Origin: Arthrobacter sp. SDTb3-6
Lineage (GTDB): Bacteria > Actinomycetota > Actinomycetes > Actinomycetales > Micrococcaceae
Reading direction: 5' to 3'
DNA: 64,000 bases
NCBI RefSeq assembly: GCF_013376095.1
Contig: NZ_JAAMFN010000004.1
Span: forward strand, 62,001 to 126,000
Part shown: positions 2,300 through 34,692 of the stretch, piece after piece
How the letters are laid out: each line of letters opens with the position of its first letter
Position numbering within the stretch: the stretch's first letter is position 1
Made by a program: the position numbers and the translations under genes
Notes under the pieces: model-generated
Told to the model about the DNA's origin: nothing
The model's database searches: none
The model's input: the letters and a program-made list of their open reading frames with translations, nothing else

Positions 2300-2432
2300 G
2301 CGCCGTTGCTTCCTTTGATTGTCTTCCTGCGGCCTCGTCGTTGTGGCAGCACCCTCCACGTTACGGGACGGCACGCCCCAGGCAGGCAGCGCTGTGATGG
2401 ACTCCACAGTGCCGGATGGTCCCGGGACGTAA

Positions 2433-5668
<3,236 letters not shown>

Positions 5669-5720: not shown

Positions 5721-5758
5721 ACCCACAGACTGAACCAACTGCAGAAAGGATGAACGGG

Positions 5759-6190: not shown

Positions 6191-6231
6191 GCGGCGCCTG
6201 GCCACGGCCGCCCGGTGGGGAGCGGCGGGAA

Positions 6232-7776: not shown

Positions 7777-7782
7777 GCCTCC

Positions 7783-7788
7783 ATGCTA
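7783..7788 (-). promoter_or_regulatory. Putative -10 of the leaderless carboxylesterase gene
   Basis: On the minus strand, TAGCAT then GGAGGC then ATG (7776). The GGAGG in the 6-nt gap is too close to the start to act as a ribosome site, whereas the hexamer fits a -10 box placing transcription at the start codon. Confidence 0.4.
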
Positions 7789-7866
7789 CGGAACGTGGAC
7801 GCCCCGTGCCCGCGCCCGGCGCCCGCGCCCCGTGCCCGGGCCCGGCGCGGGACCGGCACGCGGGAG

Positions 7867-7872
7867 TAACCT
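7867..7872 (+). promoter_or_regulatory. Putative -10 of the leaderless CoA-transferase gene
   Basis: TAACCT, then 6 nt (GATGGC), then ATG at 7879. No Shine-Dalgarno sequence precedes the start. Confidence 0.4.
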
Positions 7873-7878
7873 GATGGC

Positions 7879-9294: not shown

Positions 9295-9387
9295 GCCCGG
9301 CCCGCCGCATTTCCCGCGCGGCACCCGCATAGGGGAAACTGGGGAAGGCGGGCACCGCCGTCGTACCCCACCAGGAGAACCCCACGC

Positions 9388-9885
9388 ATGAACCTCACCG
9401 TCCGCCCCGCAACATCCGATGACTTTGGCGCCGTCGCCCGGATCACGGCCGATGCCTACCTGGGGGCCGGCTACTTTGACAGCGCCGAGTACCCGTACAT
9501 GCAAAAGATCATGCGGGTGGCGGAGCGGGCGGCCGTGGCCCCGGTGATCGTGGCAGAACGCGACGGGGTGGTGGTGGGCTCCGCGACGCTGGCCGTGCAC
9601 GGGGACGAATGGGCGGACATTGCGCGGCCCGACGAGCTCGAATTCCGGCTGCTCGTGGTGGACCCGAAGGTCCAGCGCAGCGGGGCCGGGGCCGCCATGG
9701 TGCGGTACATCCTGGACCGGGCCCGCGCCGCGGACGGCATCCGGGCCGTGAGCCTCACCACGGGCGACGACTGGCACGGCGCCCACGCCCTCTACCGCAA
9801 GCTGGGGTTCGTCCGCGCGCCGGAGCGCGACTGGCCCATCCCGGAGAACGGCAAGATGCTGCGCGTCTACCGCCAGGAAGTGTAG
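9388..9885 (+). CDS. GNAT family N-acetyltransferase
   Basis: A 165-residue single-domain acetyltransferase. The N-terminus LTVRPATSDDFGAVARIT starts the fold, and the acetyl-CoA pyrophosphate loop is seen as VDPKVQRSGAGAAMVRYIL (R-S-G-A-G-A). The C-terminal HALYRKLGFVRAPERD is the usual tyrosine-containing strand and helix. The start is supported by AGGAG upstream. Substrate unknown. It lies upstream of gatC on the same strand with about 75 bp between, so it is probably separate from gatCAB. Confidence 0.9.
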   Translation: MNLTVRPATSDDFGAVARITADAYLGAGYFDSAEYPYMQKIMRVAERAAVAPVIVAERDGVVVGSATLAVHGDEWADIARPDELEFRLLVVDPKVQRSGAGAAMVRYILDRARAADGIRAVSLTTGDDWHGAHALYRKLGFVRAPERDWPIPENGKMLRVYRQEV

Positions 9886-9916
9886 ACGGCACGGAATTAT
9901 CCCCCGCCGCGGGAGA

Positions 9917-9922
9917 CTAAGC
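9917..9922 (+). promoter_or_regulatory. Candidate -10 element for the gatCAB operon
   Basis: TAAGCT at 9917-9922 lies about 40 nt before the gatC start and is followed by GGTGGGGACAACTTTTTTC, a T-rich stretch unusual in this GC-rich sequence, and then by the GGGGAGA ribosome site. No clear -35 is seen. Confidence 0.35.
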
Positions 9923-9961
9923 TGGTGGGGACAACTTTTTTCTTTTTTGCAGGGGAGATCC

Positions 9962-10258
9962 ATGGCTGCGATCAACCGTGGGCAGGTGGCGCATCTGGCG
10001 CAACTGGCCCACATCGAGATGAGCGACGACGAACTGGACCGCATGGCCAAGGAACTGGCCGTGATTGTGGATTCCGTCAAAAGCGTCAGCGAGGCTGCCG
10101 GGGCCGACGTCCCGGCCACATCCCACCCGATCCCGCTGACCAACGTCATGCGCGAGGACGTGGTGGGCCATGTGCTCACCGCCGAGGAGGCACTGTCCGG
10201 TGCCCCGGATTCCGCGGACGGCCGCTTCAAGGTGCCCGCCATTTTGGAGGAGAGCTAA
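9962..10258 (+). CDS. gatC: Asp/Glu-tRNA amidotransferase subunit C
   Basis: Small subunit (98 residues) of the GatCAB amidotransferase that converts misacylated Glu-tRNA(Gln) and Asp-tRNA(Asn) to the correct amides. Typical GatC features: VAHLAQLAHIEMSDDELDRM at the N-terminus and the conserved LRxD-like end replaced by REDVVGH...LSGAPDSADGRFKVPAIL. ATG 9962 follows GGGGAGA at a good distance, making the upstream TTG at 9947 unlikely. It is first in gatC-gatA-gatB, with 3 nt to gatA. Confidence 0.95.
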   Translation: MAAINRGQVAHLAQLAHIEMSDDELDRMAKELAVIVDSVKSVSEAAGADVPATSHPIPLTNVMREDVVGHVLTAEEALSGAPDSADGRFKVPAILEES

Positions 10259-10261
10259 GCC

Positions 10262-11845
10262 ATGACTGTCCATGAACTGATCCGCTCCAGCGCCGCCGAC
10301 ATGGCCGCCAAGCTGGCCGCCGGCGACATCACCTCCGTCGAACTGGTCCAGGCACACCTGGACCGCATTGCCGCCGTGGACGGCGGCGAGCGCGGCGTCA
10401 ACGCGTTCCTGCACGTCAACGCCGAAGAGGCCCTCGCCGTTGCGGCCGACGTCGACGCCCGCCGCGCCGCCGGGGAGGAGCTCCACGAGCTCGCCGGCGT
10501 CCCGATCGCCGTCAAGGACCTCATCGTCACTAAGGGCCAGCCCACCACGGCCGGCTCGAAGATCCTCGAAGGCTGGATGAGCCCGTACGACGCCACCGTC
10601 GTGAAGAAGCTGCGCGCCGCCCGCATGCCCATCCTCGGCAAGACGAACCTTGACGAATTCGCCATGGGCTCCTCCACCGAGCACTCCGCCTACGGCCCCA
10701 CCCGCAACCCGTGGGACCTGGACCGGATCCCCGGCGGTTCCGGCGGCGGGTCCGCGGCTGCCGTTGCTGCCTTTGAGGCCCCGCTGGCCCTGGGCACCGA
10801 CACCGGCGGGTCCATCCGCCAGCCCGGCGCCGTCACCGGCACCGTGGGAGTCAAGCCCACCTACGGTGCGGTCTCCCGCTACGGCGCCATTGCCATGGCG
10901 TCCTCGCTGGACCAGATCGGCCCGGTCTCCCGCACCGTCCTGGACTCGGCCCTGCTGCAGGAGGTCATCGGCGGGCACGACCCCCAGGACTCCACCTCGC
11001 TGACCGATCCCTCCACCGGCCTGGCCGACGCCGCCCGCCTGGGCAACGTTGCCGGCATGAAGATCGGCATCATCAAGGAACTGCACGGCGAGGGCTACCA
11101 GGCCGGCGTCGAAAACCGCTTCAACGAGTCGCTGGAGCTGCTGCGCGGCGCCGGCGCCGAAATCGTTGAGGTCTCCTGCCCCAACTTTGGCTACGCACTG
11201 GGCGCCTACTACCTGATCATGCCGAGTGAGGCCTCCTCCAACCTGGCCAAGTTCGACGGCGTGCGCTTCGGCATGCGCGCCCTGCCGGCCGAGGGCCCGC
11301 TCACCATTGAACGCGTCATGGCCGCCACCCGTGCGGCCGGCTTCGGCGACGAGGTCAAGCGCCGCATCATCCTGGGCACCTACGCCCTTTCGGCCGGCTA
11401 CTACGACGCCTACTACGGCTCCGCCCAGAAGGTCCGAACCCTGATCCAGCGCGACTTTGCCGCCGCGTTTGAACAGGTCGACGTGCTGATTTCCCCGACA
11501 GCGCCCACCACGGCGTTCAAGCTGGGCGAGAAGCTCAACGACCCCCTGGCCATGTACCTCAACGATGTCGCCACCATCCCGGCCAACATGGCCGGCGTGC
11601 CCGGGCTGACCCTGCCCGGCGGCCTGGCGGACGAGGACGGCCTGCCCGTGGGCATCCAGCTGCTGGCCCCGGCCCGCGAGGACGCCCGCCTGTACCGCGT
11701 GGGCGCCGTGCTTGAATCCCTGCTCGAGGCACAGTGGGGCGGCCCGATCCTGGACCGCGCCCCCTCGCTGGCCGAGACCCCGGCGGTCGAGCCTGTCGAG
11801 ACCCAAGGGACCGCCGCAACCGCCGCAGCCAAGGAGGCCAACTAA
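10262..11845 (+). CDS. gatA: Asp/Glu-tRNA amidotransferase subunit A
   Basis: Amidase-signature subunit (527 residues) that releases ammonia from glutamine. The Ser-cisSer-Lys triad is in place: Lys85 in AVKDLIV, Ser160 in the GSGGGS loop and Ser184 in [14 protein letters not shown], with the family spacing (+75, +99). The ribosome site is GGAGGAGAG. The last 25 residues form an Ala/Thr-rich tail ([19 protein letters not shown]) whose DNA at 11778-11803 matches the intergenic repeat at 5669-5694, so the tail appears to be partly derived from that element. The stop overlaps gatB as TAATG. Confidence 0.97.
11778..11803 (+). repeat. Dispersed 26-nt element inside the gatA 3' end
   Basis: Matches 24 of 26 bases of 5669-5694, including the unbroken core GCCTGTCGAGACC. 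Here it is translated as part of the PAVEPVET tail of GatA, beyond the conserved amidase fold. Confidence 0.6.
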
Positions 11846-14253: not shown

Positions 14254-15194
14254 CCGGGCGCATCGGCTGGGCCGGGCTGCCTGCACAGGTCCGTGCCGGC
14301 ATCGAGGGGATCCTGGGCGACGCAGTCGTGGCGGCCGCATCGCAGCCCGGCGGCTTCTCGCCCGGCTCGGCGGACCGGGTGCGGCTCGCGTCCGGGCGCA
14401 CGGCGTTTGTGAAGGCGGTCAGCGCCGACGTCAACACCACCTCGGCGGCCCTGCACCGCCGCGAAGCGGGCATTGCCGCCGCACTCCCGGACGGCCTGCC
14501 CGTGCCGGCGTTCCTCGGCTCGTACGACGACGGCACCTGGGTGGCGCTGGCCTTCACCGACGTGGACGGCCGGCACCCCGCGGAGCCGTGGGTGGACGCC
14601 GAACTGCAGCATGTTCTGGACACGCTGGACCGCATGGGACGCGTCAGCCTGCAGGGAAGCCCGGCCCTGCCGCGCTGTGAGGATTCGCTCCGGGGTGCCT
14701 TCCAGGGGTGGGAAAAACTGCGGAAGCGCCCGCTGGACGGGCTCGATCCGTGGGCGTCGGACAGCCTCGACACATTGGCGGGGTTGGCGCAGCGCGGACT
14801 GGCCGCCGTCGCCGGCACGTCCCTGGTCCACGGGGACCTGCGCACCGACAACATCCTGTTGACGGGGGACGGCGCGGTGCTGGTCGACTGGCCGTGGGCC
14901 TGCACCGGTGCCCCCTGGGTCGATGCGCTGGGTGTGCTGGTCAACGTCACGTCCCTCGACCCGGCGGCCAACCCCGAACTGCCGCTGGTGCACCATCCCG
15001 TCTTCGCCGGCGTTCCGGCAGGGGACGTGGACGGCGTCCTGGCGGGCTATGCCGGCTACTTCATGGACATGTCCCGCCGCCCCGAGCCGCCGGGGATTCC
15101 AGCGCTGCGTGCCTTTCAGCGGAAGCAGGCCGAAGCCCTCATCGCCTGGCTGCGGCAGCGCCTGCCCCACACTGACGCGCTAACGGGCACCTGA
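14250..15194 (+). CDS. Aminoglycoside phosphotransferase-family kinase
   Basis: A 314-residue kinase-fold protein of the APH/choline-kinase superfamily. The catalytic loop is HGDLRTDNILL (His-Gly-Asp with metal-binding Asn) followed by VDWPWACTG (metal-binding Asp of the DFG equivalent). Such proteins phosphorylate small hydroxylated molecules; the family name does not imply drug resistance. It overlaps the PP2C-like gene by 4 nt, so kinase and phosphatase are probably made together. The stop lies inside a hairpin shared with convergent pepC. Confidence 0.8.
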   Translation: MTGRIGWAGLPAQVRAGIEGILGDAVVAAASQPGGFSPGSADRVRLASGRTAFVKAVSADVNTTSAALHRREAGIAAALPDGLPVPAFLGSYDDGTWVALAFTDVDGRHPAEPWVDAELQHVLDTLDRMGRVSLQGSPALPRCEDSLRGAFQGWEKLRKRPLDGLDPWASDSLDTLAGLAQRGLAAVAGTSLVHGDLRTDNILLTGDGAVLVDWPWACTGAPWVDALGVLVNVTSLDPAANPELPLVHHPVFAGVPAGDVDGVLAGYAGYFMDMSRRPEPPGIPALRAFQRKQAEALIAWLRQRLPHTDALTGT

Positions 15195-15229
15195 CCGGGG
15201 TGTTTCTGCGGCACAGTCAAGTGCCCGTT
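15182..15229. terminator. Hairpin between convergent kinase and pepC genes
   Basis: AACGGGCAC at 15182-15190 pairs with GTGCCCGTT at 15221-15229, extended imperfectly by CTGAC/GTCAA; the left arm contains the stop of the upstream gene. Position between converging genes suggests a bidirectional terminator, though no long T-run follows. Confidence 0.45.
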
Positions 15230-15250
15230 CGCGACGGGTTGCCAGGGAGC

Positions 15251-16600
15251 CTAGGCCAGCGCGCCCATGGGGTCCCAGGCCTGCAGCACGATGGGCTCGG
15301 CTGCCAAGGCATGGCGCAGCTCGGGGGAGAGGCGCTTCTTGTTGACCACGACCTCGAAGACGTACTCGTCAAACCAGTTGTCGGCCATGGTGAAGAATCC
15401 CTGGTCGCCGTTTTCCTCGCCCCAGCTGTTCTCCACCCGCCAGCGCCGCGTGTCGCCGTCGAGCACGTCCACGCCCGTCAGCAGCATGGCGTGCGTCATG
15501 GCCGATTCGCCAAAGCGGACCCGGGCCTCCTTGTCCATGTCCAGCTCGGCGCCGTAGAGGCCTGCATAGTCATAGAGGCGGGCGTCCCAGATGCCGTCCT
15601 TGCGGACCATCTGCGGTCCCACGTCGCAGCCAAACCAGACCGGCTGCCCGTCCAGGATGGCCTCCTTGGCCAGCCGCTTGGCCAGGGCGATGTCCACGTT
15701 GAGGTAAAGCACCGGCGCGGCACCGACCACATTGCCCAGGTGCTCGACCGTCAGGGTGCTGCCCTTGGGGTGCTCGGAGCGGGGGTCGTCCACGAGGCAG
15801 ACGTAGTCATGGAGGTCGAGGGTGGTGTACTTGGCCAGGAATTCCTGCGGGGTCAGCACGCCCTCGCGGTGGAAGGCCTTCTTGTCGTCCGTGTACTCCC
15901 ACTCGAACTGCGTCGGGGGCGTGCCCAGGTGCAGGGTGAGGATCCGGTGCACCTCCGTGATGATCCGTTCGCGGGCCGCTTCCTCCCCGGCCGCGTCGCC
16001 GGCGTGGCGCAGCGTGCGCATTTCCTGCGCACCGCGGCGCAACAGCGAGCGGAGCACGGAATTCATCCGGCTGGTGTTCGAGGACGACTCGGTCTCCGGC
16101 ATGGCCGACTTTGGCACGGCCCCGTACTTCGTGAAGATGTTCACGGCCATGTCCCACTGCCCGCCGTCGCCCATCACGGTCTGCAGCAGGTAGGCCACCA
16201 GTCGGTCGTCCCCGGGCCGTTCGGCCGTTTCCAGGACGGACTGCAGGAAGTAGTTGGCCCGTTCCAGCTTGTCGAAGTACATGGCGTAGTTCTGCGAGAA
16301 CTCGAACTCCTTGACGTCCAGCACCTGCTTGGCGCCGGCGCGCAGCAGGTTCAGCGCCGCGAACAGCCAGCAGCGGCCGGACTTCTTCTGGTTTGTGGCC
16401 TTCCAGTCGTCGATGCGGTTCGAGACGGTGGTGGACAGGGACGTGGCCAGTTGGTGGTCAACGGCAATTTCGTCCACGCTGACCCGCGAGATGGCGTTTT
16501 GTGTGCGCTTGAGGACGGGATCGGCGGCAAAGGATTTATGCAGCTCCGCAAGCTGCCCCATGGTCAGGGCCGCGGCGGTTGTGTCTGTGATGGTGGTCAT
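15251..16600 (-). CDS. pepC: C1-family aminopeptidase C (bleomycin hydrolase type)
   Basis: Cytosolic cysteine aminopeptidase, 449 residues, usually a hexamer that trims peptides. The papain-like triad is visible: Cys77 in SGRCWLFAALN, His in AMTHAMLLTGVD and Asn in RVENSWGEENG. The N-terminal KSFAADPVLKRTQNAISR and the long helical insert (YLLQTVMGDGGQWDM) match the family, as does the length. ATG 16600 (MTTITDTT) is chosen because the longer version starting at 16636 adds a non-conserved basic stretch. It converges with the kinase-like gene. Confidence 0.93.
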   Translation of the reverse strand: MTTITDTTAAALTMGQLAELHKSFAADPVLKRTQNAISRVSVDEIAVDHQLATSLSTTVSNRIDDWKATNQKKSGRCWLFAALNLLRAGAKQVLDVKEFEFSQNYAMYFDKLERANYFLQSVLETAERPGDDRLVAYLLQTVMGDGGQWDMAVNIFTKYGAVPKSAMPETESSSNTSRMNSVLRSLLRRGAQEMRTLRHAGDAAGEEAARERIITEVHRILTLHLGTPPTQFEWEYTDDKKAFHREGVLTPQEFLAKYTTLDLHDYVCLVDDPRSEHPKGSTLTVEHLGNVVGAAPVLYLNVDIALAKRLAKEAILDGQPVWFGCDVGPQMVRKDGIWDARLYDYAGLYGAELDMDKEARVRFGESAMTHAMLLTGVDVLDGDTRRWRVENSWGEENGDQGFFTMADNWFDEYVFEVVVNKKRLSPELRHALAAEPIVLQAWDPMGALA

Positions 16601-25089: not shown

Positions 25090-28000
25090 CTACGGCGTGC
25101 AGGCCGTATCAGCCGGGCGCGCGGCCGGGTCGAAACCCGCGGCCGCGGTCCCGCCGCTGCCAAACACCCGCATCTCGGCGGCCGACGCGAACTGCAGCCC
25201 ATTGAGGGCGCTGTTGGCCTGGAACTTCACGAACCGGGCCTTGACGGCCGGGAACGTGATGTTCTGCATGCCCGCCGCGTCCACCAGGTCACCGGTGGCG
25301 ACTTGCGTCCAGGTGGTGCCGTCCTCCGAGGTGAAGATGGTGTAGCCCTTCACCTTGCCGTTCTGGCCGCCGGACTGGCGGTCCTGGTAGCCGAAGCCGC
25401 TGACGGTGTATTCACCGTGGAGGTCCAGCTGCACCCAGTGCGGGTAGTCCGTGATGGTCGGATCCCATTCCGTGTGCCAGATGGTGCTGGCATCGCCGTC
25501 CAGGACGTTGGCGACGGGTCCCGCGCCGGGCCCTGTGGTCATGTTCTCGGAGTCCGCGCTCGCCGTCATGGACGATGGCGGCACCATGGCCTTGCTGCCG
25601 ACCGCGAGGTTCGAATCAGAGTCCACCGTCTTGGTGGCGCAGTCGTTGAAATACGTCGCGGCCGGGTGGATCACCGCGCTGGTCCCGGCGGCGCCCGCCG
25701 GGGCCGTGATGATCCACGTCGTCTTGGCCGTGGCGCCCGGCTTGACGGTGCCCGCCAGGTTGCCGTCCTTGACTGCCACCTGTGCGGTCCAGCCGGCGGG
25801 CAGGATGCCCAGCGACATGGCCACATTGGTGGCGTCCGTGGCCTCGTTGTTGGTGAACGTGGTCACGTAACTGTTGGTGGTGCCCGGGTTCAGGTCCGCG
25901 TTGGCCGGACCGGCCACGGCGGCGCAGGACGCCCCGACGCTGACAGCGCCAAGGTCAGTGACGGTGAAGTCATCGAGCACAAAGTCGGCACCTTTGGCAG
26001 CCCCGGTCTTCCGGAGGCCCACCCAGTCGTCCCCGCAGCCGGCCGTGAAGGTCCGTGAGTATGTTGCCGTGTCCAGGGCCGGGGCCATGGCCTCGTCCTT
26101 GAGGTCCTTCGACGTCACGGTGCCACCGGCTGTTCCTCCCGAAAGAGTGTCCGCACCGGTCACCCACTGCCATTGGCCGGCCACGTTCGTCTGGTACTTG
26201 AAGGACACCTTGTAGGAGTGGCCGGCCGTGAACGGCACCGTGGCGGGCACCGTCCGGTACACCAGGCCGGTGTTCTCCTCATGCGCCTTCAGCGAATGGT
26301 TCCCGTCCAGCACGTCGTCCACTGCCTGGCCGTTGAGGGAGCCTGCGTTGTACGGGCTGGCCGTGTTCTTCCACGCCTTTTGCGAGTAAGGGGCGTGGAG
26401 GTCGCTGATACTGGTGCGCGGATCGGTGGATCCGCCGGCGTCGCCCTTCACGAACGGACCCCAGCCGGGCTGGTTTCCTTCGAAGTTGGCGCTGGCGACG
26501 AGCTTTCCGGGGCTGCCCGCGGGCACGGCCACCGGCGTCGTGGTGTCCTCCATGATCCGCACGTCGTCCAGTGTCACCGCTGCGGCACCGGCCACTGCGC
26601 TGATGGACACATCCACTTTTTGGTTGACGGGGGCGGTGAACTGCACCGATGCCCGCTGTGAGTAGGTGCCCTGCTTGGCGTCGGACGCCATCTGGTTCTT
26701 GTCCGGGGTGATGTCGAAGGTGTTGGCCGCGTTGAGGCCCGTGCCTGTGACGCCGAGGGTGACGGCCCGGCGGCTGCCCGCGGCAATCTCCACATTGGCG
26801 CTGAGCGTGTACGACTTGCCCTTCTCCAGCTTCTTCACGCTTTGGCCGATGGACGACGCCGAGGTCCCCAGGACCGCTACGTTGTCACCGATGGAGGTAC
26901 GTGCGACGGCGGCGCCGCCGGTGGGGTTCCAGGCGTCGAGGTTGCCGGCGTTGAAGCCGGGGTCCACGAGCATGGAGCCGTCGCCATAGTTGGCGCTCTT
27001 GTTTACGGGCTGGTCGCCATTGGGTGCCAGCACGTAGGCCACTGCCTTGTCGCCGGTCAGGGTGACGGTGCCGTTGTTGTTGATGACGTCGGAGACCTTG
27101 GTGCGCCCTTGGTCCGTGAGCTTGTACAGCGTGAAGTTGCGCTTGTTGGCGAACTGGCTGGTCAGCGTAAACGTGGTGGTGCCGCCGGTTGCCGAGTAGA
27201 AGTACATCTTGTCGGCGTCGGTGGGGGAGGTGGTCTTGGAGTTGTTTGCCGCGTCCTGCCAGGGCAGCAGGTACGTGCCGCCGTTCAGGACCACGGCGTT
27301 GCCCATCGTGATCCGGCGCTGGCCATTGACCATCTGGACGGCCACCCCGCCCGTCAGCGTTGCCGACTTGCCAAAGTCCCAGTTGGTCACGTCAAAGTGC
27401 TGGAGGAACTTGGTGGGCAGGTTGTTGACCCAGATGTTGTTGTAGAACGCGTTGAAGTCGTCCTGGCCAGTCCAGCCCTCAAACTCCTTCAGCTGGGTGC
27501 CTCCCAGCAGCGGGTCCGTGTTCCAGACGTCGCGCTGGGAGTTGGAGATGAAGCGGACAATGTTGGAGTTGATGCCCTTGTTCGTGGCGCCACCATAGTT
27601 CTTGTCATTGGCCCAGTGCGACCAGATCGAGTTGCCCTCGAACTTGTACGCCCACTCGGAGGCCACCTCGAAGCCCATCTTGTGCAGCTGGGTGGCGAGC
27701 TGGTCGGCCAGCCATCCACTGGAGTAGTAGGCGTCGATGTAGATCGTTTTGATGCCGGGGGCTTCCTTGCGGAGTTCGGCGAATCGGTCCAGGATGGCGC
27801 CGGTGCCCAAGTCCTTGCGCTGGTCAATGTGGTACGACTGGTTCAGCCAGTCCCAGCCGTTGACCTGGCCGGAGATCATGCCGTCGCTGAAGCTCTTGGC
27901 CTGCGGGTACGCCTCGGTGACGTTGACGTGGACGGCAAGGTCGGCATTGAACGCCGCTCCCTTCGATGCCAGGGTATTCAGGTCCGCCAGGCCGCCGGCC

Positions 28001-29697
28001 CGGGTGTTGTAGTCTCCGCCGTAGTCCGGATGGCCGGAGTCGTGGCCTTCATTGGCGTAGCCCTTTTCCAGGACCCACTGGCCCAGGTCGTCCGTGGACT
28101 GGGAGATCCGCTTGACGTTGTCGAGCGTCTTCAGGAACGGGTTGGTGGCTTGCGAGGCGAAGTTGAACGGGATGTGCTGGACCACACGCTCGGGCACGCG
28201 GTCGGCGCCCAGGGGCGCCGTCATGGCGGTCCGGTACGCCGTGGCGCCGTCTTCCCAGGTGACCTTGCCGTCGCCATTGGCGTCGGCGGAGAGGACCACG
28301 GTGGTTTTGGGCAGGGTGTAGAACTGCACGCGGGGATCAGTGGCCCCGGCGGCTGCGTAGGTGTAGTTGCCCACGGACAGTTCTGCGCGCTTGGCGCCGT
28401 TGCCGGCGTCGACAATCCGCGACTGCAGCCGGGTGTTCCAGTTGTTGTTGTTGTCCTGGGCCGAGTCGTCCGTGGCGTTGGTCATGAGTCCGGCGGAGAG
28501 CTGGGAGTTGCTGACAAAGCCGTAGGGGGTTCCGACGTCGGCCGGGTCCACCTTGCTGCCGCCCGTGACGGACAGGAACTGGTCCGCCGTGGTGGTGGAA
28601 TCGGTGGAGATCTTGGTCCGGGCCAGCTGGGCAGCCGGATCGCTGGAGTCAACGGACACCAGGGACTGGTTGGGGATGGCCAGCTGGTCAAGGGTTGCGG
28701 CGGCGCTGCCGGAAATCTTCGTGACGGCGAACTCCACCGTGTTTTTGGCGGTGGCCGTCAGCGAGGATTCGATGGTGAGGTTCGGGAAGTCCGCGAACGT
28801 GGACGAGTAGGTGGCTGTTGCGCCACTGGCCGACATGGTGGTGGTGGCCGCGTGGTTCTTGCCGTTCAGCGTGAATTCCGAGAGTTTGTCCGCCTGGCCG
28901 GCCAGCGACTTGCCGTCCAGCGAATAGGAGATGACTTGCGGGAATTCCTTGCCTACCTTTACTTCCAGGCCGGCGCCGTTGCTGATCGTTACCGGGGTTG
29001 CCGGATCCGCCGGGGGCGCGGGCGGGACGGGCACCGGGGTGGTGTCGCCGGTGGCGCGCACGCGCAGTTCCGAGGCGGAGACGTTGTTGCTGCCGTTGAT
29101 GGTGCTGTCGGCCTCAAACTTCACGTAGCGGGCCTTGACCGGGCTGTCGAAGAGGATGGTCTGCACCTGGGTGTTCGACGTCGGCTGGGCCAGGCTGCCC
29201 GATGCCACGGGTGCGCCCCAGTCGCCGGCCGGATCCGTGGCCACGGAGCGGTTGTCGGTGGCGAAGACCTTGTAGTCCTTCACGGGGCCGTTGGCCTGGT
29301 TCTTGACGGAGTAGTCCAGCCCGGTCAGGGTGAAGGATCCGCCCACGTCCCAGGAGATCCAGTGGGGGAGGGGGTCGGCCACGCCGACGCCGTCGACCAC
29401 CTTGTAGGCGACAGTCCACTGCGAGGCATAATCGTTGTCGAAGGCGCCGGCCGCCGTGCCGTCCAGGGCGGGCGGGGCCGGGTAGGCGGGCGACTGGGAG
29501 TCGGCCCCGATGAGCGTGTACTGCGACGGGGTGACGGGCGTGCCGGTCGGGTCCGGGGCGGCCTGGGCGGCGGACCCCATGCCGACGCTCAGGGTGGCTG
29601 CCAGCGTCAGCGCGGCCGCGGCGGCCGTGGCGCGGTGCAATCTCGGGCGCAGTTGTGGCGGAGGTGCCGCCAGGGTGCAAGGTTGGGGGGATTTCAC
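25090..29697 (-). CDS. Secreted GH101 endo-alpha-N-acetylgalactosaminidase
   Basis: A 1535-residue enzyme that releases the Gal-GalNAc disaccharide from Ser/Thr-linked O-glycans. GTG 29697 follows AAAGGA; a signal peptide (arginine-rich, then Ala-rich helix) ends near AAQA at residue 46. Domains: F5/8 type C-like (about 55-200); GH101 core (about 230-950) with the nucleophile Asp655 in TIYIDAYYSSGW, acid/base Glu681 in ASEWAYKFEG, and GGATNKGINSNIVRFISNSQ; galactose-binding-like domains (DPGFNAGNLDAWNP; ANFEGNQPGWGPF); an NEW3-type beta domain (SLGILPAGWTAQV); and a C-terminal F5/8 type C domain. No LPxTG anchor, so probably released. The loop between the catalytic residues is shorter than in the pneumococcal enzyme as I recall it. 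Confidence 0.93.
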   Translation of the reverse strand: MKSPQPCTLAAPPPQLRPRLHRATAAAAALTLAATLSVGMGSAAQAAPDPTGTPVTPSQYTLIGADSQSPAYPAPPALDGTAAGAFDNDYASQWTVAYKVVDGVGVADPLPHWISWDVGGSFTLTGLDYSVKNQANGPVKDYKVFATDNRSVATDPAGDWGAPVASGSLAQPTSNTQVQTILFDSPVKARYVKFEADSTINGSNNVSASELRVRATGDTTPVPVPPAPPADPATPVTISNGAGLEVKVGKEFPQVISYSLDGKSLAGQADKLSEFTLNGKNHAATTTMSASGATATYSSTFADFPNLTIESSLTATAKNTVEFAVTKISGSAAATLDQLAIPNQSLVSVDSSDPAAQLARTKISTDSTTTADQFLSVTGGSKVDPADVGTPYGFVSNSQLSAGLMTNATDDSAQDNNNNWNTRLQSRIVDAGNGAKRAELSVGNYTYAAAGATDPRVQFYTLPKTTVVLSADANGDGKVTWEDGATAYRTAMTAPLGADRVPERVVQHIPFNFASQATNPFLKTLDNVKRISQSTDDLGQWVLEKGYANEGHDSGHPDYGGDYNTRAGGLADLNTLASKGAAFNADLAVHVNVTEAYPQAKSFSDGMISGQVNGWDWLNQSYHIDQRKDLGTGAILDRFAELRKEAPGIKTIYIDAYYSSGWLADQLATQLHKMGFEVASEWAYKFEGNSIWSHWANDKNYGGATNKGINSNIVRFISNSQRDVWNTDPLLGGTQLKEFEGWTGQDDFNAFYNNIWVNNLPTKFLQHFDVTNWDFGKSATLTGGVAVQMVNGQRRITMGNAVVLNGGTYLLPWQDAANNSKTTSPTDADKMYFYSATGGTTTFTLTSQFANKRNFTLYKLTDQGRTKVSDVINNNGTVTLTGDKAVAYVLAPNGDQPVNKSANYGDGSMLVDPGFNAGNLDAWNPTGGAAVARTSIGDNVAVLGTSASSIGQSVKKLEKGKSYTLSANVEIAAGSRRAVTLGVTGTGLNAANTFDITPDKNQMASDAKQGTYSQRASVQFTAPVNQKVDVSISAVAGAAAVTLDDVRIMEDTTTPVAVPAGSPGKLVASANFEGNQPGWGPFVKGDAGGSTDPRTSISDLHAPYSQKAWKNTASPYNAGSLNGQAVDDVLDGNHSLKAHEENTGLVYRTVPATVPFTAGHSYKVSFKYQTNVAGQWQWVTGADTLSGGTAGGTVTSKDLKDEAMAPALDTATYSRTFTAGCGDDWVGLRKTGAAKGADFVLDDFTVTDLGAVSVGASCAAVAGPANADLNPGTTNSYVTTFTNNEATDATNVAMSLGILPAGWTAQVAVKDGNLAGTVKPGATAKTTWIITAPAGAAGTSAVIHPAATYFNDCATKTVDSDSNLAVGSKAMVPPSSMTASADSENMTTGPGAGPVANVLDGDASTIWHTEWDPTITDYPHWVQLDLHGEYTVSGFGYQDRQSGGQNGKVKGYTIFTSEDGTTWTQVATGDLVDAAGMQNITFPAVKARFVKFQANSALNGLQFASAAEMRVFGSGGTAAAGFDPAARPADTACTP

Positions 29698-30067
29698 GAA
29701 TTCAAGTCCTTTGCGGGAAGGGAAATGCGTCAAGTGTGCCGGGGAATGCCCGGCGTACGGGCCGGCGACTGGCGGGACCAGGTGTGGCGGGATCGCCGGC
29801 GCCCGAACCGTTGTTATGGATAACAAGAGAAGTGTTCCACGCGAGTGACCTGGATTACAAGGGCCGGTTCCACGAGGTCCGCCGGGTGACCCCAGGGATC
29901 GGTCGGGTCCCCCGCGAAGGGTCGGCATGATTGATTGGCGTTAAGTTGATTATTTTCACCTGCTTTAAATCATTAACAATCATTGCGTGCTAGGCTTGGT
30001 CTATAGAATGAAACCGCCGGCGCGGCCCCGCTGCTGCCGGACCCCCACCTCAAGGAGTATGCACACA
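29698..30067. promoter_or_regulatory. Divergent control region of the GH101 and amino-sugar genes
   Basis: 370 bp without a gene. It contains an operator-like palindrome (29811-29826) and an AT-rich island (29926-29990) rich in TGATT/AATCA, including AATCATT twice 10 bp apart (29968-29974, 29978-29984). TATAGA at 30002-30007 may be a -10 for the operon. The AT content contrasts sharply with the surroundings. The DeoR regulator at 33901-34692 is the obvious candidate to bind here. Confidence 0.5.
29811..29826. promoter_or_regulatory. Operator-like palindrome TTGTTAT-GG-ATAACAA
   Basis: Perfect 7-bp arms with a 2-bp centre, 114 bp upstream of the GH101 start. The size and symmetry fit a dimeric repressor site. 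Which protein binds is not shown by the sequence; the DeoR regulator of the neighbouring operon is likely. Confidence 0.5.
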
Positions 30068-30985
30068 ATGAGCGAGACCGCCGTTACGGACCTGGGCCCC
30101 TTCATGGAAGCAGAGCTGACCAGCCAGCCTGTGGTGTGGGCCCGGGCCATCGCCCAGGCCCGGGAGGAAAGCCTGCTGCCGGCCGATGGCCAGCGCGTGG
30201 CCGTGATTGGCTGCGGCACCTCCTGGTTCATGGCCCAGAGCTATGCCGCCGCACGGGAATCCGCCGGCAGGGGCGTCACCGACGCCTTCGCTGCGTCGGA
30301 GGCGTTCCTCGGCGCGGACCGCGGCTACGACGCCGTCATCGCCATCACCCGCTCCGGCACCACCACCGAGGTGCTCGAAGTCCTGATCGGGCTCAAGGGC
30401 ACCGTGCGCACCGTTGCCGTGGTGGGCGATACCTCCTCGCCGATCATGGGGCTGGCGGATGCCGTCGTCGAACTTCCCTACGCGGACGAGAAGTCCGTGG
30501 TGCAGACCCGCTTCGCCACGACGGCCCTGGCCTACCTGCTCACCAGCGTGGGCGTGGACCTGTCGGCCGCCGTCGAGGACGCCAAGGCGGCAGTCACGGC
30601 GCCCGTGGGGCCGGAGCTCATCGACGCCGAACAGTTCACCTTCCTGGGCACCGGCTGGACCGTGGGCCTGGCGCACGAGGCCGGCCTGAAAATGCGCGAG
30701 GCCGTCCAGGGCTGGACCGAGTCGTACCCCGCCAAGGAATACCGCCACGGCCCCATCTCCATCGCCGCGCCCAACCGCGTGACCTGGATGTTCGGCCGGC
30801 AGCCCGAGGGCCTGGATGCGGACATGGACAAGACCGGCGCACGCTACATCAACAATGACGTGCACCCGCTCGCCGAACTGGCCCGCGTCCACCGTGTCAC
30901 CCTGGAGCGCGCCCGTGCCCGCGGCATGAACCCGGACCTGCCGCGCAACCTGACCCGCTCCGTCATTCTGGACGAGACCGCCTAG
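30068..30985 (+). CDS. SIS-domain sugar-phosphate isomerase/deaminase, AgaS-like
   Basis: A 305-residue protein with two sugar-isomerase (SIS) domains: VAVIGCGTSWFMAQSYAA and AITRSGTTTEVLEVL in the first, FLGTGWTVGLAHEAGLKMRE and YPAKEYRHGPISI in the second. This is the GlmS C-terminal/AgaS architecture. In this operon it is most simply a galactosamine-6-phosphate deaminase/isomerase giving tagatose-6-phosphate. It is shorter than classical AgaS (about 380). ATG 30068 is preferred because AAGGAG is 10 nt before it and would touch the ATG at 30059. First gene of the operon. Confidence 0.85.
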   Translation: MSETAVTDLGPFMEAELTSQPVVWARAIAQAREESLLPADGQRVAVIGCGTSWFMAQSYAAARESAGRGVTDAFAASEAFLGADRGYDAVIAITRSGTTTEVLEVLIGLKGTVRTVAVVGDTSSPIMGLADAVVELPYADEKSVVQTRFATTALAYLLTSVGVDLSAAVEDAKAAVTAPVGPELIDAEQFTFLGTGWTVGLAHEAGLKMREAVQGWTESYPAKEYRHGPISIAAPNRVTWMFGRQPEGLDADMDKTGARYINNDVHPLAELARVHRVTLERARARGMNPDLPRNLTRSVILDETA

Positions 30986-31018
30986 GGCCGTCCGGCCGCC
31001 ACGAAAGCAAGCAACCTG

Positions 31019-32011
31019 ATGAGCATCCCCTCCGCAGGCCCGGCAGCGGCCCGCCTCACCGCAGTCCCGGTCGGGGCCAGCCCCGTGGCGGGCCAGGCCG
31101 TGCTGGCCTTTGACGTGGGCGGGACGGACATGAAAGTGGGGCTGGTGCGCGGCGAGCTGACCGCCGCCTCCCACGCCGTGACGGACCTGCAGCGCCACCC
31201 CACGCCGCTGGACGGCGAACGCCCGGGGGAAACGGTCTGCGCCCGCATCGCGGAACTTGCGCACGACTACCAGACGCGGCACCGGGACACGGTGATCGCG
31301 GCCGTGGGCGTGACGGTGCCCGGAATTGTGGACGAGGCCAACGGGATCGGCGTCTATTCGGCCAACCTGGGCTGGCGCGGTTTCCCCTTCACCCGGACCC
31401 TCACCGGGGCGCTGGGCCTGCCGGTGGCATTCGGCCATGACGTCTCCATGGCAGGGGAGGCCGAATTCAGGATCGGCGCGGCCGTTGGCGAGTCCGACGT
31501 CCTGGTGCTGGTGATCGGCACCGGAATTGCCGGCGCTGTGCTGTGCGACGGGCGCCGCGTGACGGGTGGCGGCTATGCCGGCGAAATCGGCCATGCCATG
31601 GTCCCGTCGCCCGACGGCGGCCTCGCCATCCTGGAGTCGCTTGGCTCCGCCGGGGCCATTGCCCGGCGCTACGCCCAGTCCGGCGGCCGCCCCGTGGACG
31701 GCGCGCGCGACGTCCTGGCCCGTGCCGGGGCCGGCGACGCCACCGCCCGGCAGGTGTGGGACGACGCCGTCAACGCTCTCGCGTTCAGCGTGGCCCAGTG
31801 CGTGTCCATCCTGGGCACCGAAACGGTGGTGCTGGGTGGCGGGCTGTCCATGGCCGGCCCGGCCCTGTTCGAACCGCTGGCGGCCCGCATCGACGCGCTG
31901 CTTTCCTTCCACCGCCGCCCCCGCCTTGTCCACGCAGTCCTGGGCGAAAACGCCGGACTCATCGGTTCCGCCCTCAAGGCCCGGAGCCTGGCCGCCGGGG
32001 TGTCCCGGTGA
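31019..32011 (+). CDS. ROK-family sugar kinase, probable amino-sugar kinase
   Basis: A 330-residue ROK kinase. The phosphate loop FDVGGTDMKVGLV, GVTVPGIVDEANGIGV, the catalytic Asp141 in GHDVSMAGEAEF and IGTGIAGAVLCDGR are seen. The usual CxCGxxGC zinc motif after GGYAGEIGHAMV is absent: the sequence there is SPDGGLAILESLGSAGAI. In this context it would phosphorylate GalNAc or galactosamine at C6, though glucose or fructose are possible for the family. The stop overlaps the next start (GTGA). Confidence 0.85.
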   Translation: MSIPSAGPAAARLTAVPVGASPVAGQAVLAFDVGGTDMKVGLVRGELTAASHAVTDLQRHPTPLDGERPGETVCARIAELAHDYQTRHRDTVIAAVGVTVPGIVDEANGIGVYSANLGWRGFPFTRTLTGALGLPVAFGHDVSMAGEAEFRIGAAVGESDVLVLVIGTGIAGAVLCDGRRVTGGGYAGEIGHAMVPSPDGGLAILESLGSAGAIARRYAQSGGRPVDGARDVLARAGAGDATARQVWDDAVNALAFSVAQCVSILGTETVVLGGGLSMAGPALFEPLAARIDALLSFHRRPRLVHAVLGENAGLIGSALKARSLAAGVSR

Positions 32012-33015
32012 GCGCGGGCAAGCTGGTCCTGACCGTCACGCCCAACCCCGCGGTGGACGTCACCTACATGGTCGACGGCGTGGATCCGGGCTCCTCCCAC
32101 CGCGTCCCCACGCCGCTGTACCGGGCCGGCGGCAAGGGCCTGAACGTCTCCCGCGTGGCCCTCCAGCAGGGCTTTCCCACCCTGGCGGTCACGACGGCGG
32201 GCGGGGCGTCCGGCGCGCAGCTCGCCGACGACCTCGCGGGATCGGGCATACCGTACCGACTGGTGCCCGTGGCCTCCGCGACCCGGCGCACCATTGCGCT
32301 CGTGGACACGGTGTCCGGGCTGACCAGCATCTTCAACGAAGCCGGCCCCGCGCTCAGCCGTGCCGAATGGCAGGCTCTGACTGCCGCCGTCGTCGACGGG
32401 TTGGACGGCGGCCAAGTGCACGGCGGCCAGACAGACGGTGGCTGGGCCGACGATGCGCCGCGCCCCGGCGTGCTGGTGGGCTCCGGCTCGCTGCCGGAGA
32501 ACGCCCCGGCCGACTTCTACCCCGGGCTGGTGGCACTGGCCCACAACGCCGGCGTCCCGGCGATCATCGACACCTCCGGCGCCGGGATCCTGTCCGCGGC
32601 CAAGGCCGGGGCGGACCTGCTCAAGCCCAACCATCACGAGCTCATGGACGCCATGGGCGAGACGGACCTTGTTGCCGCGGCCGGCAAGCTCATGGGCCTG
32701 GGCGCGCGGCGCGTCCTGGTCAGCGTGGGGGAGGAGGGCATGCTCGCCTTCGAGACCGGGCGCCCCGGCCACCTCCAGGCGAAGCTGCCCGCACCGCTGG
32801 CCGGCAACCCGACGGGCGCCGGGGACGCAGCGGTGGCCGCGACGGCCGTCGCACTTGCCAGCGGGACCACGGACCTGCGGGAGATCCTGCGCCTTGCCGC
32901 GTCCTGGGGCGCAGCCGCGGTGCTCATGCCGGGGGCAGGGGAAATTTCCCCGCGCCACGCCGAGCTCGCCGCACAACTCATCATCACCGACCACCTGGAG
33001 GAACCGTGCCCTTGA
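32008..33015 (+). CDS. PfkB-type hexose-phosphate kinase (probable tagatose-6-phosphate kinase)
   Basis: A 335-residue 1-phosphofructokinase/LacC-family kinase. It opens LVLTVTPNPAVDVTYMVDG, has GGKGLNVSRVAL (sugar-phosphate binding) and ends with the catalytic NPTGAGDAAVAA, Asp273 acting as base. With an upstream SIS isomerase and a downstream aldolase, tagatose-6-phosphate to tagatose-1,6-bisphosphate is the natural reaction; fructose-1-phosphate is the alternative. GTG 32008 overlaps the previous stop. A short Gly/Gln-rich loop (DGGQVHGGQTDGG) is an unusual insertion. Confidence 0.87.
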   Translation: MSAGKLVLTVTPNPAVDVTYMVDGVDPGSSHRVPTPLYRAGGKGLNVSRVALQQGFPTLAVTTAGGASGAQLADDLAGSGIPYRLVPVASATRRTIALVDTVSGLTSIFNEAGPALSRAEWQALTAAVVDGLDGGQVHGGQTDGGWADDAPRPGVLVGSGSLPENAPADFYPGLVALAHNAGVPAIIDTSGAGILSAAKAGADLLKPNHHELMDAMGETDLVAAAGKLMGLGARRVLVSVGEEGMLAFETGRPGHLQAKLPAPLAGNPTGAGDAAVAATAVALASGTTDLREILRLAASWGAAAVLMPGAGEISPRHAELAAQLIITDHLEEPCP

Positions 33016-33869
33016 CCGCCACCCGCACCATCATGGACCGTGCGGCGCAGGAAGGCACCGGCCAGGGCGCCTTCAACGTCATCCACCTGGAGACGCTCGA
33101 AGGCCTCATCGCAGGCGCCGAGGCGGCCCGGCGCCCCGTCATCCTGCAGATTTCCGAGAACTGCGCGAAGTTCCACGGCGGGCTGGAGCCCGTGGCGGCC
33201 GCCTCACTGGCCGCGGCCCGCAAGGCGTCCGTGCCCGTGGCCGTCCACCTTGACCACGCCGAGGACGAGGCCCTCGCTTGCGAGGCCGTCGACCTGGGCT
33301 TCGGCTCCGTCATGTACGACGGCGCGCACCTCGAGTACGCGAAGAATGTCGAAGTGACCGCCCGCGTGGCGGCCTACGCCCACGGGCGGGGCGTCTATGT
33401 GGAGGCGGAACTTGGCAAGGTGGGCGGCAAGGACGGTGCGCACGCGCCGGGCGTGCTGACCGACCCCGCTGAGGCCGCCGCGTTTGTGGCCGCCACCGGC
33501 GTCGACGCCCTGGCCGTCGCCGTGGGCTCCTCCCACGCGATGACCGAGCGCTCGGCCGCCTTGAACCTGGACCGGATCACCGCCCTCAAGGCCGCCCTGG
33601 ACGTGCCGCTGGTGCTGCACGGCTCCTCCGGCGTTTCGGATGGGACCATTGTGGCCGCCATCGCGGCCGGCATGACCAAGATCAACGTCTCCACGCACCT
33701 CAACGGCTTTTTCACCCGGGCCGTGCGCAGCTACCTCGATGCCAACCCGGCCGTGGTGGATTCGCGCAAGTACCTGGGAGCCGGGCGCGCCGCACTGGTT
33801 CCGGAGGTAGCACGGCTGCTAGCGTTGTTTGCAGGCGCAGGGGCTGCGCCCAACCGGGGGCTGCCCTGA
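33006..33869 (+). CDS. Class II aldolase, probable tagatose-1,6-bisphosphate aldolase
   Basis: A 287-residue zinc aldolase of the fructose/tagatose-bisphosphate family that gives DHAP plus glyceraldehyde-3-phosphate. Catalytic Asp83 and zinc ligands His84 (VHLDHAED), His177 (VGSSHAMT) and His205 (VLHGSSGVSD) match the GatY/KbaY pattern, and GKVGGKDG is the lid loop. The GTG at 33006 follows GGAGG closely; TTG 33012 is an alternative. It overlaps the kinase stop by 10 nt. It would complete the amino-sugar route begun by the SIS protein. Confidence 0.88.
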   Translation: MPLTATRTIMDRAAQEGTGQGAFNVIHLETLEGLIAGAEAARRPVILQISENCAKFHGGLEPVAAASLAAARKASVPVAVHLDHAEDEALACEAVDLGFGSVMYDGAHLEYAKNVEVTARVAAYAHGRGVYVEAELGKVGGKDGAHAPGVLTDPAEAAAFVAATGVDALAVAVGSSHAMTERSAALNLDRITALKAALDVPLVLHGSSGVSDGTIVAAIAAGMTKINVSTHLNGFFTRAVRSYLDANPAVVDSRKYLGAGRAALVPEVARLLALFAGAGAAPNRGLP

Positions 33870-33900
33870 TGGCGGACCCTTCTTCCCTCGGGAGCATCCA

Positions 33901-34692
33901 ATGAACCGCACTGAACGGCTGGCAGCCATTCTCGACATCCTGGCGGCCGACGGGCAGGTGGAGGTTGAGGGGATTGTGGAGAAGCTCGGCGTCTCCCCGG
34001 CCACGGCCCGGCGCGACCTGGACTCCCTGGCCAACGAGCGCCTGCTGACCCGCACGCGCGGCGGGGCCACCTCCGGCTCCGTCTCCTACGACCTGCCCGG
34101 CCGGTACAACCGCGACGACCACGCGGCGCAAAAGCACCAGATTGCCCTGGCCGCCAGTGCGCTGATCCCCAAGGGCGCCGTCATTGGCCTGTGCGGGGGG
34201 ACCACCAGCACCGCGTTGGCGCAGGTCCTGTCCACGCGCGAAGACCTCATGGAGCCCTCGAACCGGCCCTCCCTGACAATTGTCACCAACGCCATCAACA
34301 TCGCGGCCCAGCTGGCCATCCGGCCCAACCTGAAAATCATGGTCACCGGCGGCATCGTCAACGCCCGCTCCTACGAGCTGGTGGGCCCGTATGCCGATTC
34401 CATCCTCCAAAAGGTGGCCCTGGACCTGGCCTTCATCGGCGTCAACGGCATTGACCCCGTCACGGGCCCCACCATCAACGACGAGGGCGAGGCGTCCGTG
34501 AACTCGCGCATGGCCCGCCGGGCCTCGGAGGCGTACATGCTGGCCGACTCCTCCAAGATCGGCAAACGCGCCTTCGCCACCATGGACGACCACCGCCTCC
34601 ACAAGCTCATCACCGATTCCGGCATCACCGCGGAGCAGCTGGCAGCCTTCAAGGAAGCCGGCACGGACGTCATCGTCGCCCCCGAAGCGTAG
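33901..34692 (+). CDS. DeoR-family repressor of the amino-sugar operon
   Basis: A 263-residue DeoR/GlpR regulator. The N-terminal helix-turn-helix is MNRTERLAAILDILAADG then VEKLGVSPATARRDLDSLAN, and the C-terminal sugar-phosphate sensor domain shows GLCGGTTSTALAQVL, MVTGGIVNARSYELVGPYAD and ADSSKIGKRAFATM. The effector should be a phosphorylated sugar of the pathway. It is the last gene of the operon and a likely autoregulator acting at the 29698-30067 region. Start at ATG 33901 with GGGAG upstream; 31 bp follow the aldolase stop. Confidence 0.9.
   Translation: MNRTERLAAILDILAADGQVEVEGIVEKLGVSPATARRDLDSLANERLLTRTRGGATSGSVSYDLPGRYNRDDHAAQKHQIALAASALIPKGAVIGLCGGTTSTALAQVLSTREDLMEPSNRPSLTIVTNAINIAAQLAIRPNLKIMVTGGIVNARSYELVGPYADSILQKVALDLAFIGVNGIDPVTGPTINDEGEASVNSRMARRASEAYMLADSSKIGKRAFATMDDHRLHKLITDSGITAEQLAAFKEAGTDVIVAPEA

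Follow-up and report, generated by a model that had tools for sequence, protein, structure and literature searches.

The window analysed here, a 64,000-nucleotide stretch of DNA from Arthrobacter sp. SDTb3-6, holds between positions 25,090 and 34,692 one large gene on the minus strand and, divergent from it, a five-gene operon on the plus strand. The large gene (25090..29697) opens at a GTG at 29697 and encodes a multidomain protein of 1535 aa which, judging from Pfam, phmmer and an active-site alignment, is a GH101 endo-alpha-N-acetylgalactosaminidase, predicted to be secreted and to have a core-1-type active site. An alternative ATG start at 29928 would give a longer frame of 1612 aa; if the GTG is used, the N-terminus is a signal-peptide-like stretch, as seen by eye. 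A first-pass annotation had described a 1535-residue secreted GH101 with several binding domains and had proposed a profile check on 25090-29697; this returned PF12905 over its whole length (profile positions 1-272 of 272, 418.4 bits, cut-off 25), and the description stands. The solved GH101 structure 2zxq matches with an E of 2.6e-146 (phmmer).

Further Pfam domains in the protein are PF18080, PF17451, PF17974, PF21466, CBM4_9 and NPCBM_assoc, together with two F5/8C (CBM32-like) stretches, one towards each end, giving the order signal peptide (by eye), CBM32-like, GH101 core, galactose-binding-like domains, NEW3, CBM32-like. No LPXTG motif was seen by eye at the C-terminus, and the enzyme is apparently freely secreted. 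The equivalents of D682, D789, E822, W748 and W750, presumably in EngBF numbering, which agrees with the residue spacing in 2zxq, are identical in 62 of 62 actinobacterial rows of the alignment; the catalytic Asp and Glu and the lid Trp pair are thus kept in the GH101 of the window. SpGH101 of Streptococcus pneumoniae and EngBF of Bifidobacterium longum share with it the family, the core domains and these five residues. Identity to EngBF is 37% over the core, EngBF has two segments, of 7 and 10 residues, that the 10 actinobacterial rows compared lack, and, unlike both known enzymes, the window GH101 carries CBM32-like domains at both ends and appears by eye to be freely secreted.

The operon and steps encoded elsewhere

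The operon (30068-34692, all genes on the plus strand) encodes a SIS-domain phosphosugar isomerase/deaminase (30068..30985; PF01380, 45.3 bits), a ROK sugar kinase (31019..32011; PF00480, 132.7 bits), a PfkB-type kinase (32008..33015; PF00294, 122.9 bits), a class II ketose-bisphosphate aldolase (33012..33869; PF01116, 281.1 bits) and a DeoR-family regulator (33901..34692; PF00455 and PF08220). The SIS protein is GlmD/NagB-II-like in a PDB sequence search, matching 2cb0 with an E of 7.3e-19 and the putative tagatose-6-P isomerase 3i0z with only 1.3e-4. Neither its PDB nor its NCBIfam matches reveal a close likeness to the AgaS type (defined by cd05010 in PMC5583593); by profile name the glucosamine-6-P deaminases (GlmD, NagB-II) are nearer, the best NCBIfam name being glucosamine-6-P deaminase, with a score below cut-off. 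E218 and R226-H227-G228-P229 are unvarying in 12 aligned orthologues. A NagS-like GlcNAc-6-P dehydratase was ruled out, the profile and PDB matches being GlmS/GlmD-like; NagS is described in PMC12680351 as MurQ-related and as not binding GalNAc-6-P.

The ROK protein has ROK glucokinase as its best NCBIfam name, also below cut-off, and its closest solved structures are glucokinases, a beta-glucoside kinase, fructokinases and ManNAc/GlcNAc kinases. The PfkB protein passes the TIGR03168 hexose kinase subfamily model (223.2 bits, cut-off 216.4) and falls under the cut-offs for 1-phosphofructokinase and LacC; the aldolase passes TIGR00167, ketose-bisphosphate aldolase (218.7 bits, cut-off 215.6), yet its best name, class II FBP aldolase, is again under cut-off. 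Tagatose and fructose types are indistinguishable by the NCBIfam profiles of these two enzymes. Fructose- or glucosamine-type matches, which the first-pass annotation had named as telling against its reading, are therefore what the best names give, but the SIS, ROK and FBP-aldolase models lie below their cut-offs and only the two broad subfamily models are passed among the operon enzymes. For the DeoR protein, the best of 13 families listed is AgaR (NF040755), at 152.5 bits against a curated cut-off of 260.

From these families and their context we infer a substrate of galacto-configuration. The SIS protein would convert galactosamine-6-P to tagatose-6-P: were its product fructose-6-P, a dedicated ketose-phosphate kinase and aldolase would be needless, and nagB lies separately in the genome. 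The ROK protein would then be a GalNAc/GalN 6-kinase, the PfkB protein a tagatose-6-P kinase and the aldolase a tagatose-1,6-bisphosphate aldolase.

A whole-genome search for NagA, NagB, GH35, GH42 and GH112 gave no match on the window's contig (C79), nor did two ABC solute-binding-protein queries, in line with the earlier remark that the window has no GalNAc-6-P deacetylase, no enzyme to split Gal-beta-1,3-GalNAc and no transporter. The accompanying suggestion that the locus is completed elsewhere is borne out in part. Another contig (C52) of the genome carries a nagA-like gene at 70347 (203.3 bits, curated cut-off 225.65) and a full nagB at 81377, and there are two GH35 genes, on contigs C85 and C66, but GH112 is absent and the two binding-protein queries found no close relative, the best being 29% identical over most of the length. 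The GH35 on C66 (PF01301, 354.6 bits) is close to solved BgaC-type enzymes, its best PDB match being 4mad (E 3.9e-139), which we take to be B. circulans BgaC. It lies side by side with a LacI gene, and both are relatives of the GH35 (49-58% identity) and LacI found in the fetched GH101 flanks of 21 of 40 named loci; Streptomyces, Leifsonia and Microbacterium have relatives of the pair close to GH101. GH42, considered as the disaccharide splitter, gave one partial match in this genome (positions 10-80 of 376; 24.5 bits, cut-off 21). A GH112 route was rejected for this genome, PF09508 occurring in a single one of 245 family genomes and not in this one, as was a Gfo/Idh protein on C85 considered as a GH109 alpha-GalNAcase, no alpha-N-acetylgalactosaminidase label occurring among the best 60 of its 87 PDB matches. 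The genome thus offers a candidate for every enzymatic step of the GalNAc (aga) pathway, with NagA under cut-off and the specificities predicted.

Shared promoter region and linkage in relatives

The promoter region common to GH101 and the operon (29698..30067), whose divergent layout is also seen in relatives, contains a 36-bp candidate operator, TGATTATTTTCACCTGCTTTAAATCATTAACAATCA, at 29947..29982 (plus strand), roughly 250 bp away from the start of GH101 and presumably bound by the DeoR protein. A pattern search with TGAY-N18-RTCA-N6-RTCA gave 63 matches in 2.62 Mb, where equal base frequencies would lead one to expect 2.5; the reversed pattern had none. Of 74 SIS loci, 51 have it in the 420 bp before the gene, or 48 of 71 when three loci that are second copies of a genome already counted are set aside; the other 23 of the 74 have no perfect match within that distance. 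With a slightly stricter pattern, the whole of the window's own genome has two matches (29947-29982 and one on contig C80) against one for the reversed control. In Arthrobacter sp. AZCC_0090 the operator precedes both a lone GH101, on a contig of 403,291 bases, and, on a second contig of 583,545 bases, a complete five-gene operon. This speaks for a single regulon, although among operon-less GH101 loci only 1 of 42 (L169) has it within about 700 bp.

The first-pass annotation treated GH101 as a gut speciality, odd in a soil-type actinobacterium, and the open-licence literature, among the matches listed, does place it mainly with gut commensals and pathogens. That view is not sustained here: when 245 genomes of the window's family were searched for GH101 and SIS, GH101 was found in 30, in 8 of 32 genera. 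Nor is it rare more widely in Actinomycetota, the hosts of the 40 named GH101 loci including Streptomyces, Streptosporangium, Leifsonia and Microbacterium. All 30 GH101 genomes of the family also have the SIS gene, against 44 of the 215 others (Fisher p 1.7e-18, phylogeny ignored), and the operon adjoins GH101 at 22 of the 33 GH101 places in these genomes. The pairing is beyond chance, and the divergent arrangement with an operon leading from an amino-sugar phosphate to trioses, as first annotated, is upheld by the families and by this recurrence. Of 25 genomes tested from among the 40 loci of the named scan, 23 hold SIS, with Streptomyces and the majority of the tested Microbacterium among them; without five that appear to be in the family draw already, the figure is 18 of 20. 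Gene orders were taken from tblastn matches, since gene calls in the fetched loci are mechanical and include shadow ORFs; the other neighbour families (clusters 7, 30 and 36) come from clustering, with a profile scan for some members, and the labels of an aldolase cluster that had wrongly absorbed ROK were left unused.

Two distant GH101 types, about 40% identical, hold the equivalent spot beside the operon, and Arthrobacter sp. HY1533 has both in tandem. For the GH101 tree, six of 69 rows were removed as duplicates, their genomes having come in along two different paths; L062 and L198 (segment too short) and L200-L203 (not entered) are absent from the tree, which carries a long-branch warning for EngBF, L047 and others. 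On it, operon association is clustered (3 changes against a shuffled mean of 18.8).

A predicted core-1 regulon and its alternatives

Since the pairing and the shared DNA switch recur in relatives, the locus looks like one working system made from known parts, and we put at about 0.75 the probability that it is one regulon for the use of core-1 (Gal-beta1,3-GalNAc) O-glycans. Families, active-site conservation, linkage, co-occurrence, the motif and its place before one lone GH101 were computed; on them we build predicted catalytic steps, sugar configuration, effector and DeoR binding. The secreted GH101 would hold glycans via its CBM32-like domains and free Gal-beta1,3-GalNAc from Ser/Thr of glycoproteins; the disaccharide would be split by a GH35 beta-galactosidase encoded elsewhere, and the GalNAc taken up by a transporter, phosphorylated to GalNAc-6-P by the ROK kinase and deacetylated by a NagA-family protein, also encoded elsewhere. 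The SIS protein would deaminate and isomerise GalN-6-P to tagatose-6-P, the PfkB kinase would make tagatose-1,6-bisphosphate, and the aldolase would yield DHAP and glyceraldehyde-3-P, with the DeoR protein repressing GH101 and operon through the intervening operator until an amino-sugar phosphate is present. In relatives the five genes are accompanied by an ABC transporter: in 27 of the 49 operon loci the fetched stretch includes its binding protein, and all 34 genomes that encode this protein also hold SIS.

Another possibility, which we consider unlikely, is that the operon serves free galactosamine, another amino sugar or a galacto-sugar, perhaps from fungal galactosaminogalactan or bacterial walls, with GH101 as one of several optional feeders. 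The operon must have other uses, as GH101 is missing from 44 of the 74 SIS genomes of the family survey; it has no deacetylase here, and in L132 it adjoins a sulfatase and GH20. A NagA-family gene does lie near it in 7 of 49 relatives' loci, a weak counterpoint because in 3 of the 7 a nagB-cluster gene stands beside NagA, which may then belong to GlcNAc use; the AZCC_0090 GH101, with its identical operator motif, also speaks against this alternative. A glucosamine/fructose-type pathway, with SIS as a NagB-II-like GlcN-6-P deaminase and the position of GH101 functionless, is very improbable: the best NCBIfam and PDB names are of that type and nagB-cluster genes are neighbours of the operon at 6 of the 49 loci from relatives, but a full nagB lies elsewhere in the genome, a dedicated PfkB kinase and aldolase would double glycolysis, and the conserved linkage, 30/30 co-occurrence and shared operator would go unexplained. 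That GH101 is there merely because the site tolerates insertions, such as the methyltransferase and oxidoreductase genes that separate GH101 from the operon in L033, we hardly credit, given the different GH101 lineages at the spot, the clustering of operon association on the tree and the operator at a GH101 remote from the operon.

The core-1 regulon would share the common logic of the aga/gam pathway of E. coli, Shewanella and streptococci: a 6-phosphate, deacetylation, a SIS deaminase-isomerase, a tagatose-6-P kinase and a class II aldolase. It differs in having a SIS with no close AgaS likeness, no deacetylase in the operon, an operator motif of its own and, where streptococci have a PTS, a ROK kinase; the Shewanella GalNAc pathway also has a kinase. 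A DeoR-type AgaR is described for E. coli in PMC4694137. For S. pneumoniae, PMC5018945 presents the operon bgaC-gadVWEF-agaS-galM, with GH35 BgaC coupled to the AgaS deaminase, PTS uptake, a GntR-type AgaR and a 20-bp operator; GH101 is not among the seven genes listed there.

It is rather probable that this is a distinct Actinomycetota core-1 regulon, in which a non-AgaS SIS acts as GalN-6-P deaminase/isomerase, DeoR reads the tripartite motif, and the divergent promoter acquired GH101 enzymes of different lineages on more than one occasion. Among the matches listed from the open-licence literature, none describes an Arthrobacter GH101 locus or this SIS-ROK-PfkB-aldolase-DeoR operon. If the reading is right, mucin-type or similar O-glycoproteins would be regular food outside guts for soil-type actinobacteria, the SIS proteins, which profiles now name glucosamine-type, would add a new family to the candidates for GalN-6-P deaminase, and the short operator would be a handle for finding further regulon members. 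Release of Gal-beta1,3-GalNAc by GH101, predicted here, is in common with the bifidobacterial GNB/LNB pathway. That pathway uses GH112 and an ABC transporter; the window's genome lacks GH112, as do 244 of the 245 genomes searched. In one relative (genome G158, locus L047), GH101, ABC genes and GH112 stand in a row.

GH101 and its association with the operon

The 1535-residue protein encoded at 25090-29697 (minus strand) covers the whole GH101 catalytic profile, and a profile search also found the GH101-specific flanking domains, CBM4_9, NEW3 and two F5/8C-type stretches. All 14 solved GH101 sequences align to it with E values of 3.3e-133 or lower. Among 63 aligned GH101 domains, 62 of them actinobacterial, the equivalents of D682, D789 and E822 and of the W748/W750 pair of Bifidobacterium longum EngBF (in what we take to be EngBF numbering, with which the spacing in the 2zxq sequence agrees) are identical in all 62 actinobacterial rows; two EngBF stretches are absent from the 10 such rows inspected. 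The first-pass identification of this gene as GH101 is thus borne out.

Divergent from it, on the plus strand (30068-34692), lie genes for SIS, ROK, PfkB, class II aldolase and DeoR proteins in this order, each with a Pfam match. The pairing suggested there is recurrent among 245 genomes taken from the same family. GH101 is present in 30 and the SIS gene in 74, including 30/30 genomes with GH101 as against 44/215 without it (Fisher p 1.7e-18, kinship ignored); these 44 indicate that the operon has further inputs as well. The operon adjoins GH101 at 22 of 33 places (the window and 32 others that were fetched), with all five genes present at 20 of the 32. The 22 include one place, L033, where four operon genes lie at the edge of the stretch and a 4.7-kb insert precedes GH101; a named copy of that place (L167) has the fifth gene. 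At four of the 33 the operon is 25-38 kb away, and at seven none lies within the fetched stretch. SIS was likewise found in 23 of 25 genomes picked from 40 GH101 loci of named genomes, though five of the 25 look already included in the family draw. One of the linked places, L062 (genome G144; 8907-10525 and 14439-15279), appears to be decaying: its GH101 is broken, with two stops within one match, and its aldolase match is in two pieces. No description of a GH101 locus in Arthrobacter was found in the accessible portions of the open-licence literature (including PMC11861894, PMC11992087 and PMC6265309); subscription papers could hold one.

A candidate operator and two GH101 types

The element RTCA-N6-RTCA, scanned on both strands, occurs in 59 of 70 mutually related regions upstream of SIS, vs 3.0 +/- 1.7 in shuffles. 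The longer pattern TGAY-N18-RTCA-N6-RTCA is matched 63 times in 2.62 Mb, where equal base frequencies would give 2.5 and the reversed pattern gave none; it lies at most 420 bp upstream in 51 of 74 SIS loci (48 of 71 minus three duplicate copies), the other 23 having no match within that distance. Four matches lie elsewhere: before a truncated SIS gene (L147), before a GH101 gene (L169) and in other places (L047, L097). A slightly stricter pattern gave two matches in the 4.31-Mb genome to which the window belongs, one between GH101 and the operon (29947-29982, contig C79) and one on contig C80; the reversed control gave one. The motif is probably bound by the operon's DeoR protein, which would repress both the GH101 and the operon transcripts.

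The L169 case is from Arthrobacter sp. AZCC_0090, where the operator falls within the 269-bp gap ahead of GH101. The contig there has 403,291 bases, and GH101 lies behind a gene that by eye resembles a GntR regulator; a complete SIS-ROK-PfkB-aldolase-DeoR operon with its own operator is on another contig (583,545 bases). The other 41 of the 42 operon-less GH101 loci (two being second copies) have no operator closer than about 700 bp to the match or gene start.

The GH101 beside the operon is not always of one type. It is 87-91% identical to the window's at L031-L034 and only 39-43% identical at L043, L054, L055, L058, L060 and L061, where, within one genus, the operon proteins are 65-91% identical to those of the window. 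Arthrobacter sp. HY1533 (L166) carries both types in tandem, with the operon on one side and a further gene, presumably hutI, on the other. On the GH101 tree the position beside the operon requires three changes, at least two of them forced by well-supported branches (shuffled mean 18.8), and no operon was found in the fetched flanks of the nearest relatives of the window type (Streptomyces, Leifsonia and Arthrobacter sp. AZCC_0090). Three changes would also suffice for a single gain with two losses; the simplest reading is that GH101 was recruited to this spot more than once. In two Arthrobacter relatives that also carry GH101 at the operon, a second GH101 type lies near GH42 and a beta-helix protein (L056, 4786-13420; L057, 1018-18434), accompanied in L057 by a GH20 of 1524 aa that bears three F5/8C stretches.

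Sugar specificity and the remaining steps

In the pathway proposed here, secreted GH101 would liberate Gal-beta1,3-GalNAc, to be cleaved by GH35; GalNAc would be imported, phosphorylated by ROK and deacetylated by NagA; SIS would deaminate and isomerise the product, PfkB would phosphorylate the result and the aldolase would cleave it. This logic is that of the aga/gam loci, of which AgaS is the signature enzyme, as far as the accessible portions of three reports describe them (PMC4694137, PMC5018945, PMC5583593). The window SIS protein is distant from the solved AgaS-type protein 3i0z, and would be a non-orthologous replacement of AgaS if it catalyses the same reaction.

The nearest NCBIfam names are glucosamine-6-P deaminase (SIS), ROK glucokinase, hexose kinase of the 1-PFK subfamily (PfkB), class II FBP aldolase and AgaR (DeoR); only the 1-PFK hexose kinase and broad ketose-bisphosphate aldolase models score above cut-off. 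The first-pass assignment of the operon to galactosamine is thereby weakened, since the names for SIS, PfkB and the aldolase are glucosamine- and fructose-type, though most of the models fall below cut-off. Against these names, a galacto substrate is suggested by the GH101 itself, by the dedicated ketose-phosphate kinase and aldolase, neither of which fructose-6-P would require, and by the location of nagB away from the operon (C52:81377, above cut-off). The ROK kinase (31019-32011) seems by eye to lack, at about residues 195-215, the cysteine zinc motif typical of this kinase family.

The suggestion that the locus is completed elsewhere is supported by candidates for two steps. For NagA, the single good match in the genome (C52:70347) scores 203.3 bits against a cut-off of 225.65, besides two traces on C1; two genes encode GH35, on C85 and C66. 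The C66 gene, whose best solved relative is 4mad (which we take to be a beta-1,3-galactosidase), is divergent from a LacI gene whose product is 67% identical to a LacI near GH101 in L050; GH35 (49-58% identity) and LacI occur together within the fetched flanks of 21 of the 40 named GH101 loci. A single NagA could serve both sugars, since that of S. coelicolor is reported to accept GalNAc-6-P, with an efficiency roughly one tenth of that on GlcNAc-6-P (PMC12680351). Near the operon in relatives, NagA-cluster genes occur at 7 of 49 loci and nagB-cluster genes at 6, with both at three (one member of each cluster was profile-scanned); the neighbourhood is therefore one of amino-sugar metabolism, which alone decides neither gluco nor galacto. 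On C85 (L157, C85:1-19900; cluster at 956-11061), the neighbours of GH35 code for a sulfatase, a pair of ABC permeases, a Gfo/Idh oxidoreductase and a lipoprotein-like protein that matches no Pfam family; permeases apart, the best relatives of the cluster's genes among the fetched loci are in SIS-operon stretches (L042, L103, L106, L132), a hint that sulfated GalNAc glycans may be involved.

Uptake

The real gap in the proposed route is uptake. In relatives an ABC transporter often lies within the five-gene operon or divergent from SIS, the position held in the window by GH101. Its binding protein is found at 27 of 49 operon loci from relatives and in 34 of the 245 genomes, each of which has SIS; the 16 genomes of the window's own genus are all without it. 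Searching the window's genome with operon-linked and GH112-linked binding proteins gave best matches 29% identical. The only GH112 among the 245 genomes searched is in G158 (L047, 7946-19901), in a row that also contains GH101, a binding protein, an ABC permease and a probable second one. In a cluster on contig C112 of the window's genome (L163, 9113-14523), with functions partly judged by eye, genes for a putative binding protein and for two permeases precede those for a class-II-aldolase-like protein and a 408-aa protein; a DeoR-like gene is divergent from the cluster.
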